This document shows, one piece after another, positions 25,775 through 63,540 of a stretch of DNA of 64,000 nt (positions are counted from its first letter, which is position 1; the number at the start of each line of letters is the position of its first letter). Under the pieces are notes generated by a model. The model did not search any database, was not told the DNA's origin, and saw nothing but the letters and a program-made list of their open reading frames with translations. The position numbers and the translations under genes are program-made. This DNA comes from Flavobacteriales bacterium (GTDB lineage Bacteria; Bacteroidota; Bacteroidia; Flavobacteriales; Schleiferiaceae): the NCBI GenBank assembly GCA_017795025.1, contig CP051243.1:1302001-1366000 (forward strand), given 5' to 3'.

Positions 25775-26130
25775 GTGAGGAATTGGTGGATTGGGGAATT
25801 GGTGGATTGGGAATTGGTGGATTGGAGAAATGGTGGATTGGGTTTTGTGGGATTGCTTCAATGTGATGTTTGCTTCAACGCAGAGAACGCAGAGAATATA
25901 GAGTTTCGCAGAATCCATAATGCCTTGCTCGCCGCGAAAGGCTTTGGCAGACGATGCCCTGCCGCCGGACAAGCCTTTGGCAGACGAAGGAATTGGTGGA
26001 TTGGGAAAATGGTGGATTGGGAGATTGGTGGATTGGGTTTTGTAGGATTGCTTCAATGTGATGTTTGCTTCAACGCAGAGAACGCAGATAATATGGAGTT
26101 ACGCGGAGCCTTGCTCGCGGCACAAGCTAT
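25775..26130. repeat. Composite repeat: GATTGGTG tracts, AACGCAGAG module and hairpin module
   Basis: Two copies of a block, about 196 bases apart, each with a GATTGGTG-type tract (25780-25840, 25990-26040), the phrase GCTTCAATGTGATGTTTGCT and an AACGCAGAGAACGCAGA module. Between them is a hairpin-prone module with GGCAGACGATGCC-like sequence. Long reading frames here on both strands are by-products of the repeats. No gene is supported between 25598 and 26824. Confidence 0.85.
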
Positions 26131-26410
26131 TGATGAGCGAGGCCACAGAGCCTTAGTTGTCGTTTGGGAAATATAATCTTTAGGAGTTGTGTTATTCTTT
26201 CGAGCTACAGAATAAGCTATAGGAGACCTCCCAATCAAGGGTTTATGGGTTGTGTCACGGGCTCGTTGCGTCTGGTGTTCCTAAAGGACTTGGAAAAAAA
26301 TCTTAATCAGCATTTCATTTAATTTTTCGAATCTGGGAAGCTCACCCTACCCCGGCTTCCGACCTACGTCGGAATCCACCCCTTCGTCGCACGAAGGGGA
26401 CGGTCCTCCG

Positions 26411-35022: not shown

Positions 35023-35507
35023 AATTCACACTTATAAATGGCTAATTGATCGCCGTTTAACTCCCGCTGTTCTACTAAAGTAAATCCTGCTTTTTCGAGC
35101 ATTTTCATAGAGGCTATATTACCCATTTCGACCAGAGCATTTAGTTCATTTTCTCCCTTCGATTTAGCCCATTGTTGAATACCGAGTAAAATTTCGGTGG
35201 CATATCCTTTTCCCCAAGCTGCCCGAGCTAGATGCACTCCACAATGTCGAACTTGAAGCGGTTCAAAAAAATTAAGATTTGCAGTACCCAGAAAAAGTCC
35301 TTGCCTATCACGGACCGTCCAAAAAAAGCCAGTACCCTCTTCAAATTGCTGCAACTTAATATTTAAAAAATCAGGATAGGTGCTGGGTTCTCGTTCCCTT
35401 AATGGACGGATGTATTTATTGGAATCCTCCTCCCCATACATGTTTATTATTTCCAGGAAATCTTCTTCTCGGATGGGGCTAAGCACACAGCGCGCGGTAT
35501 TAAGCAT
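35019..35507 (-). CDS. GNAT N-acetyltransferase, RimJ/RimL type
   Basis: A 162-residue acetyltransferase resembling the RimJ/RimL branch that modifies protein N-termini or small amines. Opening LNTARCVLSPIREEDFLEI; the acetyl-CoA-binding motif A reads GVHLARAAWGKGYATEILLG, and the following helix ends LNALVEMGNIASMKMLEKAGF, the usual end of the fold. The acceptor is unknown. It is between the SRPBCC gene (8-base overlap) and sanA (4-base overlap): a three-gene operon. Confidence 0.88.
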   Translation of the reverse strand: MLNTARCVLSPIREEDFLEIINMYGEEDSNKYIRPLREREPSTYPDFLNIKLQQFEEGTGFFWTVRDRQGLFLGTANLNFFEPLQVRHCGVHLARAAWGKGYATEILLGIQQWAKSKGENELNALVEMGNIASMKMLEKAGFTLVEQRELNGDQLAIYKCEL

Positions 35508-35946
35508 GGGCTTCCGCTTCGGCGAAGGATTTAAAATCTTCGAGGTATTGGCGACTTTGTTTTTTAAAAGCGCCCGGCATTAAGAAAGCCATAGCGCGCA
35601 TGCCCCAACTATCGAATCGGAAATAGTGCTCGGTGCGGTATAAGGTATGCTGGGCATCAATTTCCTGAAACTCATTTTTCACCTCATTGTAGACACCTTG
35701 GGTTTCGTAGGAGCCAGTAAATTCATCGGGGAGATCGCGCTTAATGATGGTTTCAACCATTTCTATCTTTCGCTTCCCCATTTCGAATTTCAACTTGGAT
35801 TTTGCTCCGGGTTGCCCGGCTTCGCCTTCGAAAGTTTCGAAGTAAACTAGGCCCTTCATCCATTTAGGCATATTATCCGGGTTATCAAAAAGGCGGATAA
35901 CCTGTTCCCTAGGTAAGTTAATGGTAATTTCGGTTTGGTATCGCAT
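35500..35946 (-). CDS. SRPBCC (START-like) family protein
   Basis: A 148-residue cytoplasmic helix-grip protein. It starts MRYQTEITINLPREQVIRLF and continues NPDNMPKWMKGLVYFETFEG, the standard beginning of polyketide-cyclase-like SRPBCC proteins, with the long C-terminal helix FKKQSRQYLEDFKSFAEAEA. The frame stays open upstream to 36174, but that part translates the 87-88 bp minisatellite and includes repeated WFYGHR/WIYGQG phrases, so the ATG at 35946 is chosen. Ligand unknown. First gene of the operon with the acetyltransferase and sanA. Confidence 0.85.
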   Translation of the reverse strand: MRYQTEITINLPREQVIRLFDNPDNMPKWMKGLVYFETFEGEAGQPGAKSKLKFEMGKRKIEMVETIIKRDLPDEFTGSYETQGVYNEVKNEFQEIDAQHTLYRTEHYFRFDSWGMRAMAFLMPGAFKKQSRQYLEDFKSFAEAEAHA

Positions 35947-36014: not shown

Positions 36015-36870
36015 AAATTGGAACACAGATGACACGGATGAGTGGATGTATCCCTTGCCCATATATCCAATCCGTTCTTCCTTTCATCCGCGTTCCACAA
36101 AACCTTAGAACACAAACGACGCAGATGAGTGGATTGATCCTATGCCCATAAAACCAGTCCGTTCTTCCTTTCATCCGCGTTCAAATAGAAGCTGGGAACA
36201 CAGATAACGCAGATGAGTGGATGAATCCTTTGCCCATAAAAACCAATCCGTTCTTCCTTTCATCCGCGTTCATATAGAAACTGGGAACACAGATAACGCA
36301 GATAAATGGATATACCCTAACCTATTAAACCACACCTTTCATCCCTTCCTCCGTGTTCCATCAAACATTAGAACACAGATGACACAGATGAGTGGATAAA
36401 CCCTTAACCCATAAATCCAATCCGTTCCTCCTTTCATCCGCGTTCAAATAGAAGCTGGGAACACAGATAACGCAGATAAATGGATATACCCTAACCTATT
36501 AAACCACACCTTTCATCCCTTCCTCCGTGCTCCACCAAACATTAGAACACAGATGACACAGATGAGTGGATAAACCCTTAACCCATAAATCCAATCCGCT
36601 CCTCCTTTCATCCGCGTTCCACAATACCTTAGAACACAGATAACGCAGATAAATGGTTATACCCTTAACCTGTATAACCAATCCGTTCTTCCTTTCATCC
36701 GCGTTCATATAGAAACTGAGAACACAGATAACGCAGATAAATGGATAAACCCTTAGCCCATATAACCAATCATTTCATCCTCTCATCCTTTCATCCGTGT
36801 TCCTTTTTAAACCAAGAGGCAGTTGCCGCAGACGAGTGGACATCCCCTAAACCAATAACACCTATCCCTT
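36015..36870. repeat. Minisatellite, nine copies of an 87-88 bp unit plus one decayed copy
   Basis: The start of each unit, GAACACAGAT or close variants, falls at 36021, 36108, 36196, 36285, 36371, 36459, 36545, 36632 and 36720, giving periods of 86-89 bases. Each unit has AACGCAGATGAGTGGAT-like left part, a CCCTTAACCCATAAA-like centre and a CCTTTCATCCGCGTTC right part. The right end (ATCCGCGTTC) is the reverse complement of a variant of the left end (GAACACAGAT), so every unit can fold as a long hairpin. It lies between divergent genes and holds no credible gene. Confidence 0.93.
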
Positions 36871-36921
36871 CTTCCGGGTCCCACCAAAGCATTCTGTTCA
36901 CTAAAGCAATATCTTAGCCCC

Positions 36922-37434
36922 ATGAAAGAACGCGATTCCCATTACATCCAACGCTGCATCGAACTATCCGCACAAAGCATCGACAAAGGAGACGCCCCCT
37001 TCGGATCAATCGTTGTTAAGGATGATGAAGTTATTTCAGAGTCCAGCAATTTCGCTGCCCGACGAATCTCCGACCATGCTGAAGTAGTGGCCCTGCATCT
37101 AGCCCATGAAAAATTAGGGCATTCCAATCTTAAAGGAGCTACCCTCTACTCCAACTGTGAACCTTGCCCCATGTGTTCCTTCATGGCCCGAGAATATAAA
37201 GTAAGCCGCGTCGTCTATGCCATCCATTCTCCCTTTATGGGCGGCCACAGCAAATGGAATATTATGCAGGACAAAGAACTACAACACTTCCCTCCCTTTT
37301 TTGATACCATCCCAGAGGTAATCGGAGGCCTGCATGAAAAAGAAGCCAAAAACGTTTTCGAACGCAGTGGATTATGGATGTTCGGGAAAGATTCGAGATC
37401 AGAGTTTGAACGAAAAGTACGCGGCGAATCCTAG
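36922..37434 (+). CDS. Nucleoside/guanine deaminase-type zinc enzyme
   Basis: A 170-residue member of the cytidine-deaminase-like fold. The zinc site is complete: DHAEVVALHLA (His and catalytic Glu) and NCEPCPMCSFMA (two Cys). GDAPFGSIVVKDDEVISES is the usual first strand pair. The C-terminal region (SPFMGGHSKWNIMQDKELQH) differs from TadA tRNA deaminases and is closer to free nucleoside or guanine deaminases, but the exact substrate cannot be fixed. It stands alone after the minisatellite and its end overlaps the converging HTH gene by 4 bases. Confidence 0.85.
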   Translation: MKERDSHYIQRCIELSAQSIDKGDAPFGSIVVKDDEVISESSNFAARRISDHAEVVALHLAHEKLGHSNLKGATLYSNCEPCPMCSFMAREYKVSRVVYAIHSPFMGGHSKWNIMQDKELQHFPPFFDTIPEVIGGLHEKEAKNVFERSGLWMFGKDSRSEFERKVRGES

Positions 37435-56757: not shown

Positions 56758-57663
56758 ATGAAGTGGGATGCCGCGCTTAAGGATTTTAAGAATTACCTGC
56801 GTTTAGAGCGTGGCTTGGCAGAGAATTCGATCAAGGCCTATTTGCGCGATTTGGAAAAAGTAGCGCGTTATTTTAAGGAAGGCCCCGATTTAAACCCTTT
56901 GCAGCTAAAACTCTTTTTATTGGAAAAGTGCCTCCGCGATCTTCAGGAGCAAAACGGTTTAAGTACGCGCAGTCAGGCCCGACTTATCTCCAGTTTAAAG
57001 GCCTTTTACAAATACCTCATTTTAGAAGATTACCTCAAAGAAAACCCCGCCGAATTACTGGAGGGACCGAAGCTAGATAAAAAGCTCCCCGAGTATTTGG
57101 AGGAAGCAGAAATCTCGGCAATGATTGATAGCATCGACCGCTCTAAACCCGAGGGGATGCGTAATGTGGCCATTTTTGAAACGCTCTATGCCTGTGGATT
57201 ACGCGTTTCGGAACTCATTGGTTTACGCTTAAGTGATCTCTTTTTTAAGGAAGACCTGATTCGGGTGGTAGGTAAAGGAAATAAGGAACGCCTAGTCCCC
57301 ATTAATAGCTTAGCCCAAAAGATGATCAACATCTACCGCAAGGAGATTCGGTCGCATTTGGATATTAAGAAAGGGGCGGAAGATATCCTCTTCCTCAACC
57401 GTCGAGGCGCCCCCTTAAGTAGGGCCATGATTTTTCACTTAGTTAAAGATGCAGCCGCCAGTGCGGGTATTCGCAAGAGCATCTCACCCCATACCTTCCG
57501 ACATAGCTTCGCTACACACTTGGTAAAACATGGCGCCGACCTCCGTGCCGTGCAAGAAATGCTGGGGCATGAGAGCATAACCACCACCGAAATTTATACT
57601 CATTTAAGTCAGGAGCAATTGCGGGATACTATTTTGAAGTACCATCCGAGGGCGGGGAAATAG
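56758..57663 (+). CDS. xerD: Tyrosine recombinase XerD-like
   Basis: A 301-residue site-specific recombinase that resolves chromosome dimers at dif sites. SAM-like N-terminal domain (1-95, LRLERGLAENSIKAYLRDLE); catalytic domain with R in CGLRVSELIGLRLSD, K in VGKGNKERLVPI, HxxR in SPHTFRHSFATHLVKHGADL, and H and Tyr in MLGHESITTTEIYTHLSQEQ. The Xer-type length and the absence of phage or integron features support a housekeeping role. ATG 56758 is chosen; upstream in-frame sequence overlaps aroQ. Confidence 0.93.
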   Translation: MKWDAALKDFKNYLRLERGLAENSIKAYLRDLEKVARYFKEGPDLNPLQLKLFLLEKCLRDLQEQNGLSTRSQARLISSLKAFYKYLILEDYLKENPAELLEGPKLDKKLPEYLEEAEISAMIDSIDRSKPEGMRNVAIFETLYACGLRVSELIGLRLSDLFFKEDLIRVVGKGNKERLVPINSLAQKMINIYRKEIRSHLDIKKGAEDILFLNRRGAPLSRAMIFHLVKDAAASAGIRKSISPHTFRHSFATHLVKHGADLRAVQEMLGHESITTTEIYTHLSQEQLRDTILKYHPRAGK

Positions 57664-57965
57664 GGGATTGGTGGATTGGGGAATTGGTTGATTGGATGAT
57701 TGGTTGATTGGTGGATTGGTTGATTGGTGGATTGGTAGATTGGGGATTGGGTTTGCTTCAACGCGGAGTTCTCAGAGAAATCAGAGGAGCGCAGAGAGAT
57801 TGGGGGATTGGAAAAATGGTGGATTGGGGAAATGGGTTTGCTGCAACGTAGAGCTTTGCCCTTCGTTAAAACTTTGGCAGGCGATGCCTTGCTCGCCGAA
57901 CAAGATTTTGGAAGGCGATGCCTTGCTTGCCGTACAAGGTCATGTAGGGCGAGAGTTGAAGCAAT
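57661..57965. repeat. Composite repeat after xerD
   Basis: A GATTGGTG-type tract begins at the stop codon (57664-57745) and reappears at 57800-57835. Then TTCAACGCGGAGTTCTCAGA (AACGCAGAG module) and two units of the hairpin module (GGCAGGCGATGCCTTGCTCG and GGAAGGCGATGCCTTGCTTG, about 34 bases apart, 57878-57935). Nothing codes here. Confidence 0.85.
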
Positions 57966-61063: not shown

Positions 61064-62190
61064 TGAGCGCAGGGCTGGGCACAAAAAAAAAACCGCAACC
61101 GACCAAAGGGAGGTTGAGGAGGTTTTTCGTCGTAGACCCCAAAATGTTAGCGGCTTTGGGATCAATTATCCTGGGATTTGTGGATTGGGGGATTTGGAGA
61201 TTGGTGAATTGGTGGATCGGTAGATTGGTGAAGCAGGGCTGGGCACAAAAAAAAAACCGCAACCGACCAAAGGGAGGTTGAGGGGGTTTTTCGTCGTAGA
61301 CCCTAAAATGTTAGCGGCTTTGGGATCAATTATCCTGGGATTTGTGGATTGGGGGATTTGGAGATTGGTGAATTGGTGGATCAGTAGATTGGTGAAGCAG
61401 GGCTGGGCACAAAAAAAAAACCGCAACCGACCAAAGGGAGGTTGAGGAGGTTTTTCGTCGTAGACCCCAAAATGTTAGCGGCTTTGGGATCAATTATCCT
61501 GGGATCTGTGGATTGGGGGATTTGGAGATTGGTGAATTGGTGGATCGGTAGATTGGTGAAGCAGGGCTGGGCACAAAAAAAAACCGCAACCGACCAAAGG
61601 GAGGTTGAGGAGGTTTTTCGTCGTAGACCCCAAAATGTTAGCGGCTTTGGGATCAATTATCCTGGGATTTGTGGATTGGGGGATTTGGAGATTGGTGAAT
61701 TGGTGGATCGGTAGATTGGTGAAGCAACTCTGGGCACAAAAAAAAACCGCAATCGACCAAAGGGAGGTTGAGGAGGTTTTTCGTCGTAGACCCTCAAGAT
61801 GTTAGCGGCTTTGGGATCATTCATCCTGGGTTTGGTGGATTGGGGGATTGGTGGATCGGTAGATTAGTAGATTGGTGAAGCCGGGCTGGACACAAAAAAA
61901 ACCGCAACCGACCAAAGGGAGGTTGAGGGGGTTTTTCGTCGTAGACCCCAAAATGTTAGCGGCTTTGGGATCAATTATCCTGGGATTTGTGGATTGGGGG
62001 ATTTGGAGATTGGTGAATTGGTGGATCGGTAGATTGGTGAAGCAGGGCTGGGCACAAAAAAAAACCGCAACTGACCAAAGGGAGGTTGAGGAGGTTTTTC
62101 GTCGTAGACCCCAAAATGTTAGCGGCTTTGGGATCAATTATCCTGGGTTTGGGGGATTAGTGAATTGGTGGATTGGTGGATCAGGGCGAG
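61064..62190. repeat. Seven-copy tandem array, period about 163 bp, with terminator-like hairpins
   Basis: The recurring phrase GGGCACAAAAAA starts at 61077, 61241, 61405, 61569, 61732, 61888 (as GGACAC) and 62050; periods 164, 164, 164, 163, 156 and 162. Each unit: A-run, hairpin (AACCGCAACC with GGTTGAGGAGG), T-run, TCGTCGTAGACCC, ATGTTAGCGGCTTTGGGATC, ATTATCCTGGG, then a GATTGGTG-type tract. Copies differ by few bases, so the array is young or homogenised. Reading frames of 80-119 codons run through it on both strands but are products of the repeat. The region 62191-62286 is non-coding. Confidence 0.95.
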
Positions 62191-63235: not shown

Positions 63236-63540
63236 CTACCCCGTTTCACAGCCCGTAAACCCTTGAAGGGGACGTCACCCAAAGCTGATTTTGTGCCCAA
63301 AAGGAACATCCACTACAAACTCCTTAAACTCGCCTGCCAAGACCTAGTGCGGCGAGCAAGGCATCGCCTGCCAAAGTCTTGTAGGGCGAGCGAGGCATCG
63401 CCTTCCAAAATCTTGTACGGCGAGCGAGGCATCACCTACCAAAGTCTTGTACGGCGGGCAAGGCTCTGAGAACTGTGTATTGAAGCAATCCCAATCCACC
63501 AATCAACCACTTCCCCTCTCCACCAATCCACCACTCCCCA
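63236..63540. repeat. Composite repeat, inverted hairpin modules and GATTGGTG tract
   Basis: First CTACCCCGTTTCACAGCCCG, close to a segment at 26.57 kb. Then four units of the hairpin module on the minus strand (for example CGAGCAAGGCATCGCCTGCC, CGAGCGAGGCATCGCCTTCC), about 34-35 bases apart (63340-63470). Then TTGAAGCAATCCCAATCCAC, the reverse complement of the tract phrase, running to 63540. Region 63061-63235 shows nothing else. Confidence 0.85.

Follow-up and report, generated by a model that had tools for sequence, protein, structure and literature searches.

An intergenic minisatellite of modular palindromes in a Flavobacteriales bacterium and its probable kinship with GxxExxY elements

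Introduction

An array of regular units with inverted ends occupies the gap between two divergent genes in the genome of a Flavobacteriales bacterium, and it raises the question of what such DNA is and by what means it multiplies. The genome is a single contig (C1) of 3.44 Mb, and the stretch analyzed here, called the window, is the 64,000 nucleotides at C1:1302001-1366000, in which positions are counted from the first base. The array is described below together with its relatives in the same genome, in the congeners G001 to G006, and around genes of the GxxExxY family across bacterial phyla.

The window array and its neighbors

The locus contains the following features.

35500..35946, minus strand, left neighbor, Polyketide_cyc2 (SRPBCC-like) protein, divergent from the deaminase gene here and in five congeners
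36021..36107, plus strand, unit W1, palindrome 36021-36095 plus linker
36108..36195, plus strand, unit W2, palindrome 36108-36182
36196..36284, plus strand, unit W3, palindrome 36196-36271
36285..36370, plus strand, unit W4, palindrome 36285-36358; with W6 (98% alike) it forms a second unit type
36371..36458, plus strand, unit W5, palindrome 36371-36445
36459..36544, plus strand, unit W6, palindrome 36459-36532; near copy of W4
36545..36631, plus strand, unit W7, palindrome 36545-36619
36632..36719, plus strand, unit W8, palindrome 36632-36706
36720..36814, plus strand, unit W9, palindrome 36720-36802; one additional 8-nt module, TTTCATCC-like
36815..36881, plus strand, degenerate tenth unit W10; nearest unit of array B (below) is B11, the last there (67%, the next 60%)
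36922..37434, plus strand, right neighbor, cytidine/deoxycytidylate deaminase-family protein (PF00383)

Nine units of 86-95 bp thus fill 36021-36814, and a degenerate tenth runs on to about 36881. The array is confirmed as a real bacterial minisatellite: TRF reports 36021-36788 with a period of 87 and 8.8 copies, and the starts of W1 to W9 are spaced 87, 88, 89, 86, 88, 86, 87 and 88 bp apart, which bears out the nine units at 86-89 bp described in the initial annotation and adds the tenth to them. The higher-order periods 174 and 261 outscore 87, so the array is also repeated in blocks. Each unit consists of an imperfect palindrome, 74-76 bp long in W1 to W8 and 83 bp in W9 (overall range 74-83), and of a linker of about 12-13 bp after it; the ninth unit owes its 95 bp to one extra 8-nt module. 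The palindrome ends are GAACACAGAT...ATCCGCGTTC; the left end GAACACAGAT and the right end reverse-complemented, GAACGCGGAT, differ at two of ten positions, in agreement with the inverted ends seen earlier. The left arm reads GAACACAGAT-NACGCAGAT-GAGTGGAT and the right arm, reverse-complemented, GAACGCGGAT-GAAAGGA-..., which makes each arm a chain of 8-10 nt modules. The string AACRCAGA occurs 19 times in the window (3.03 in shuffles), and 13 of the 19 are within the array. The remark that the unit is close to eight and a third helical turns proved to be arithmetic only, and a helical phasing is rejected, since the periods of related arrays (87, 90, 89, 87 and 81) preserve no phase.

The gap between the Polyketide_cyc2 and deaminase genes is 975 bp in this genome, and the array stops about 40 bp before the deaminase start. 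Congeners G001 to G005 have the same divergent gene pair with a gap of about 77-127 bp and no array (five of five testable); G006 falls outside this comparison because its contig ends in the deaminase gene. The intergenic sequences of the congeners align too poorly with the window site to place the array boundaries or a target-site duplication.

Composite and other repeats in the window

Modules of the array unit recur elsewhere in the window, as had been noted, and related repeats stand in these two places.

25855..26150 (right bound approximate), plus strand, composite repeats with TTGCTTCAACGCAGAGAACGCAGA, a left-end type of the CAGAG/CAAAG sub-class; related module class, outside the array
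57751..57964, plus strand, composite repeat between TTTGCTTCAACGCGGAG and AGTTGAAGCAA ends; CAGAG/CAAAG sub-class

The claim that a single family exists here in dispersed and tandem form, at 25.9, 26.1 and 57.8 kb as well as in the array, holds in part. AACGCAGA pairs do occur at 25877/25886 and 26072/26081, but none is exact at 57.8 kb, where AACGCGGAG is found instead; and all three places bear TTGCTTCAACG, the left end of another sub-class, so that they are the same kind of repeat as the array unit and not the unit itself. The left-end type at 25855..26150 is also that of the hemB-hemL site discussed below.

Composite repeats at 25779-26037, 57663-57952 and 63330-63539 are built of 8/16-bp GGATTGGT runs and 34-bp palindromic units (CTTGCTCGCCG...), and end in TTGCTTCAACG or TTGAAGCAA. 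Another tandem repeat of the window, at 61069-62158, has 6.7 copies of a 164-bp unit, a higher-order period of 481 bp and internal GGATTGGT 8-mers.

Sister arrays and exchange of units

The unit is not confined to one locus, which had been named beforehand as a refuting outcome: at least four further arrays of the same kind are present in the genome, all of them intergenic.

C1:1338.0-1338.9 kb, array W, the window array
C1:433.8-434.7 kb, array B, period 87/175, between convergent genes
C1:252.2-253.3 kb, array C, period 90/180, between convergent genes
C1:637.5-638.3 kb, array D, period 89/267, between genes in one direction
C1:2566.1-2567.3 kb, array E, period 87/356, between genes in one direction

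Within this genome the unit proper is nearly tandem-only, as 38 of the 40 matches to the motif GAACRCRGATNACRCRGAT (at most two mismatches) lie inside arrays, namely W, B, C and D. The reversed pattern has one match in the genome. Array E is a more distant variant with no match at this threshold, and its units are the least similar to those of W (0.589). Among the congeners, at no more than one mismatch, G002 has six matches, all in one array, and the motif is absent from G001 and G003 to G006.

Units are about as similar between loci as within them (mean identity 0.741 for W-B, 0.731 for W-W, and 0.771 within B), and two unit types alternate in both W and B. W4 shares 93% identity with B7 and B9, and its identity to W units other than W6 never exceeds 78%. 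When the two arrays are compared, the degenerate last units W10 and B11 match one another best (0.67, with runners-up at 0.60 and 0.63); the match of the first units is one-way, W1 being nearest B1 and B1 nearest W3. These sequence similarities suggest that several units at a time have passed between loci lying 0.9 Mb from each other, and transfer of a whole array between W and B is possible. Blocks of two to four units also repeat within arrays, with periods of 174, 175, 180, 267 and 356.

A GxxExxY gene beside arrays

Array E begins at L013:3113, and a 123-codon gene of the GxxExxY family at L013:2740-3111 stops two bases before it. A relative in G002 (L014:728-1099) sits 80 bp ahead of that congener's array of 81-bp units. 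Both proteins match TIGR04256 (E 1.7e-33 for the protein beside array E, 1.7e-34 for the G002 relative) and also PF13366; the former scores 115.5 bits for TIGR04256 (cut-off 35) and 116.9 for PF13366 (cut-off 22). The genome holds this one intact GxxExxY gene and one fragment, and the intact gene lies about 1.2 Mb from the window array; the other four of the five arrays have no adjoining GxxExxY gene. In the bacterial family, motif matches and a GxxExxY gene lie less than 100 bp apart in G002:C40, G008:C40, G021:C50 and G049:C299. The motif is present in 10 of 88 genomes of this family, and a GxxExxY gene in seven of those 10 compared with 15 of the other 78; three of the 10 have no such gene.

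The encoded protein is very likely a PD-(D/E)XK nuclease, judging from its conserved residues and a structure model. In 59 GxxExxY relatives D66, E76 and Q90 are invariant and K78 and Y94 nearly so (numbering of the L089 relative), a pattern shared with RecB/Cas4-like PD-(D/E)XK nucleases. The model of the L089 relative (pLDDT 95.2) has as its best folds SSO0001, LHK-Exo, MGME1, lambda exonuclease and Hjc; against 4ic1 (SSO0001, a Cas4) Foldseek gives E 1.2e-4 and TM 0.58, and VIA gives Z 9.9 and rmsd 5.8 over 107 aligned residues. The modeled protein is thus closest in predicted fold to Cas4, lambda-type exonucleases and Hjc, but it differs from them in its small size of about 125 residues, and a PDB sequence search found no significant relative (best E 0.5). 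A shared PD-(D/E)XK fold by itself shows no function. With one query protein, no GxxExxY match was found among 50,697 phage records, and eight were found among 72,556 plasmid records.

Inverted repeats around GxxExxY genes across phyla

Modular inverted repeats are associated with GxxExxY genes well beyond this genome. Our wide sample takes, at one genome per species, the best 80 of at least 465 confirmed relatives of the protein encoded next to array E; it leans to the clade of that protein and spans 25 named phyla. After seven loci with short flanks were dropped, 48 of the 73 usable GxxExxY loci had an inverted-repeat score of at least 15, as against two of 155 control genes from the same loci, and the mean bracketing of the sample was reached by none of 10000 permutations. 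Modular repeats are likewise found in the flanks of many of the 28 GxxExxY genes of the family set. In its 27 usable loci the inverted flank match averages 15.3 within a locus and 8.8 between different loci (maximum of 10000 permutations, 12.1), but the direct-repeat control there averages 16.1, as high as the inverted match, so repeats are abundant in these family flanks upstream and downstream, whichever way they are oriented. The gene beside array E itself has a low bracket score (7.5), its repeats standing only downstream, as the array.

The outer module in the clade of this protein is GAAC-R-C-N-GAT. Ends of the window type recur at distant loci, with GGAACGCGGATAACGCAGAT in a Chloroflexi MAG (L089), GAACGCGGATGACGCGGAT in Chryseobacterium (L121) and Promineifilum (L119), and GGAACACAGATGACGCAGA in a Bacteroidetes MAG (L099). 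Modules lie within 300 bp of 53 of 80 GxxExxY genes in the wide sample and 20 of 28 in the family set, compared with one of 30 four-helix genes and 26 of 157 controls. Tandem arrays with a period of 50-140 lie within 400 bp of four of 80 and eight of 28 GxxExxY genes, one of the eight (L087) being an unrelated 51-bp repeat, and of none of the 30 four-helix genes or 157 controls.

The four-helix-bundle genes (PF05635, 23S_rRNA_IVP; L169-L198, with L186 at C1:10223 in this genome) have modular inverted repeats of other kinds, such as TGAGATG and AGTACT. In the same bacterial family, with one of 30 loci dropped, 12 of 29 score at least 15 (none of 10000 permutations), a frequency similar to the nine of 25 in the family GxxExxY set. 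Bracketing by inverted repeats is therefore not specific to GxxExxY; a small gene inside a modular inverted repeat is a wider architecture, and the gene might be cargo.

Module type and protein lineage

Repeat type follows the protein. Each locus was labeled by the commonest module within 300 bp, using short patterns chosen after the first flanks had been viewed; 70 of 106 loci were labeled (GAT 40, GAG/AAG 24, AGGATT 6) and 36 were without a class, two of 108 proteins having been left out of the tree for length or stops. On this tree, a quick one of few columns, the 70 loci require six module changes, whereas shuffled labels require 25.2 on average and 21 at the lowest (none of 500 shuffles as low). 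The 33 loci outside Bacteroidota require three changes, as against a mean of 11.9 and a minimum of 8 for shuffled labels. Of the classed loci, GAT modules are found at 35 of 36 whose protein has GYGF or GHGF, and GAG/AAG modules at 20 of 20 whose protein has GPGL. The exception, L076, is the congener next to the protein of array E in the tree, and both kinds are present in its repeats. The GAT class extends over 14 named phyla. A Mantel test, which is cruder, leans the same way but weakly (r 0.126, three of 2000 shuffles as high). A further sub-class, GNGFQEVIYQRAL (L068, L071, L074, L078, L087 and L159), forms its own branch; five of its six members have no module class and L074 has AGGATT, and by eye its neighbors are restriction- or helicase-like genes.

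Of 395 genomes sampled in the phylum, 110 contain the motif (no more than one mismatch), 186 a GxxExxY gene, and 89 both. The gene is thus found in 89 of 110 motif genomes and 97 of 285 others (odds ratio 8.2, p 1.5e-17), and 21 of the 110 lack it. Much of this co-occurrence is shared ancestry and genome size: when four families are stratified, the link is weaker, with 64 co-occurrences observed where 58.0 would be expected (z 2.86), and taken singly just one family reaches significance (p 0.004; the others 0.23, 0.53 and 0.42). The most motif matches among the 395 genomes, 155 at one mismatch or fewer, are in the 3.2 Mb genome G147.

Sites with turnover

The interval between hemB and hemL (L199-L205; also L062 and L067) is a recurrent place of different GxxExxY elements in several species. 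It is empty in G004 and G006, contains no visible element in G003, and has a short possible scar in G002. G001 and G005, whose HemL proteins are 99% identical, bear different GxxExxY genes there with different inverted repeats, of the CACAG type in G001 and the CAAAG type in G005. The genome with the window array has G001-type inverted ends at this site and a GxxExxY gene remnant whose middle is missing. The simplest reading is that at hemB-hemL gene and repeats come and go as one unit.

By eye, GxxExxY elements of different modules also occupy the site between paaZ and the next gene in two species (L073 and L084); in the present genome those two genes overlap (L013:531-534). Elsewhere, L009:5472-6375 is a 147-bp tandem repeat inside a long gene, the end of whose product looks by eye like type IX secretion cargo.

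Alternative explanations

The most serious alternative, which we nonetheless consider unlikely, is that these arrays are passive minisatellites: a different enzyme, or recombination and replication slippage alone, would move the modular inverted repeats, and GxxExxY genes would be cargo that frequently comes to lie inside them, or would use them as promoters and terminators. The blocks of two to four units (174, 175, 180, 267 and 356) are what unequal exchange gives; the bracketing of PF05635 genes with other modules, the motif genomes that have no GxxExxY gene (21 of 110) and the arrays of this genome that do not adjoin one (four of five) also agree with it. For cargo, however, one would not expect module classes to follow the protein tree from phylum to phylum, nor gene and repeat type to be swapped together at hemB-hemL between near-identical species. 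Slippage alone puts no like arrays at five sites, and as for another enzyme, no Y1 transposase was found in the genome and no transposase of any kind was recognized by eye among the open reading frames beside the arrays.

It is much less probable that the host has domesticated the window array for use as a binding platform, as a boundary or as part of a promoter, in the gap that separates the Polyketide_cyc2-like and deaminase genes. Its place in a divergent gap, with its end about 40 bp from the deaminase start, would suit such a role, but all five testable congeners retain the gene pair without the array, and the sister arrays, between convergent genes (B and C) or genes in one direction (D and E), share no common regulatory place with it.

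Still lower in our estimation stands a structured or small RNA array, or one of CRISPR type. The regularity of the units, at 86-95 bp, and their inverted ends invite this idea, and the 81-bp units of the congener do fold better than shuffles (mean z -3.9), but mean folding z is only -0.45 to -0.95 for W, B, C and D and -1.48 for E. In an alignment of 35 rows, comprising neither array E, the congener, nor the repeats or duplicates B9, C5, C11, D5 and D6, unit ends pair in 79.4% of cells compared with 81.7% in shuffles, and there are no two-sided (compensatory) changes. The Rfam matches in the window are three tRNAs only. A CRISPR array is rejected on the same absence of an Rfam match and on its parts, there being no unique spacers but linkers of few types, and repeats that are diverged 75-bp palindromes.

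REP or BIME repeats moved by a RAYT (Y1) transposase are the least credible candidate, for although these units too are imperfect palindromes arrayed between genes, their matches are limited to a few arrays, and PF01797 has no match in this genome in a search that finds it in five of 14 control genomes.

A proposed nuclease-driven satellite

The reading that we prefer, with a probability of roughly 0.6, is that the window array is a satellite made of gene-less, tandemly amplified derivatives of a GxxExxY element, spread by the action of the nuclease. The full element would be a PD-(D/E)XK gene of about 125 codons between terminal inverted repeats of 8-10 nt modules. In the array form no gene is present and the inverted ends are about 75 bp apart, each unit following the last head to tail with a short linker. 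The nuclease would recognize its own modules, and do so as double-stranded DNA and not as RNA, given that end pairing does not exceed that in shuffles and that there is little excess of folding. It may nick or cut these modules, after which repair from another copy, in or out of register, would expand arrays by one to four units. The same repair could homogenize arrays and seed new ones in trans, much as homing endonucleases profit from repair. The GxxExxY gene beside array E would act in trans on the window array, and a benefit to the host would be unnecessary. The proposed tie between the window array and GxxExxY is through the kind of end and through array E, itself the least W-like of the arrays.

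More tentatively, and with odds that we place somewhat below even, GxxExxY elements may form a separate and widespread class of transposase-less selfish DNA, with a lineage-specific code of 8-10 nt modules and with both gene-bearing forms and gene-less, satellite-like arrays; the four-helix genes would then be a parallel class.

Relation to known systems

Homing endonucleases are small nucleases that profit from the repair of their own break. By analogy the same logic is proposed here for GxxExxY, with the difference that GxxExxY repeats bracket the gene and also exist gene-less in arrays. REP, BIME and REPIN sequences are intergenic imperfect palindromes, some of them arrayed, whose partner gene, a RAYT, is in the genome; window-type units differ from these in being modular palindromes of 75 bp whose partner is a predicted nuclease, with no Y1 transposase.

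Together with REP/RAYT, the nearest described systems are MITEs with minisatellites (BrickBuilt, PMC4596501) and the intervening sequences of 23S rRNA (PMC4990558). BrickBuilt, from Porphyromonas gingivalis, has a 23-nt unit inside one MITE whose terminal repeats resemble IS5-family ends (PMC4596501). Like the window array, BrickBuilt is a non-coding intergenic repeat of Bacteroidota with tandem units, inverted ends and no internal gene, but the window array has inverted ends on every 75-bp unit and its partner is a predicted PD-(D/E)XK nuclease. As to a MITE, which shares its ends with a transposase-bearing element, the gene-bearing relative found in this genome carries a nuclease and not a transposase, and no transposase was seen by eye beside the arrays. 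The 23S rRNA intervening sequences consist of a small S23/four-helix-bundle ORF between complementary ends, are termed a selfish element by the authors, and have recurrent sites; their ends form an RNA stem that RNase III cleaves (PMC4990558). GxxExxY elements share with them the small ORF between complementary ends and the recurrent insertion sites, but lie between protein genes, find no support for RNA structure, and carry an unrelated gene family. The window array was rejected as such an intervening sequence on its place between two protein genes and on the lack of support for an RNA structure.

A small gene with an inverted-repeat satellite is a known kind of arrangement, and there is a real chance that GxxExxY elements are a separate class. 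In the literature searched, outside which most subscription papers and preprints fall, no association of GxxExxY with repeats is described and no paper contains typical module strings; GxxExxY itself receives only passing mentions there.

Significance

GxxExxY, so far annotated by sequence signature alone, gains from these observations a context and a direct hypothesis of function, that of a nuclease with its own repeat code. If this is true, many modular intergenic repeats would be explained, and bacteria would offer a model of satellite DNA and of concerted evolution between distant arrays. The GxxExxY family would then also provide a natural collection of protein-DNA pairs whose specificity has changed many times.
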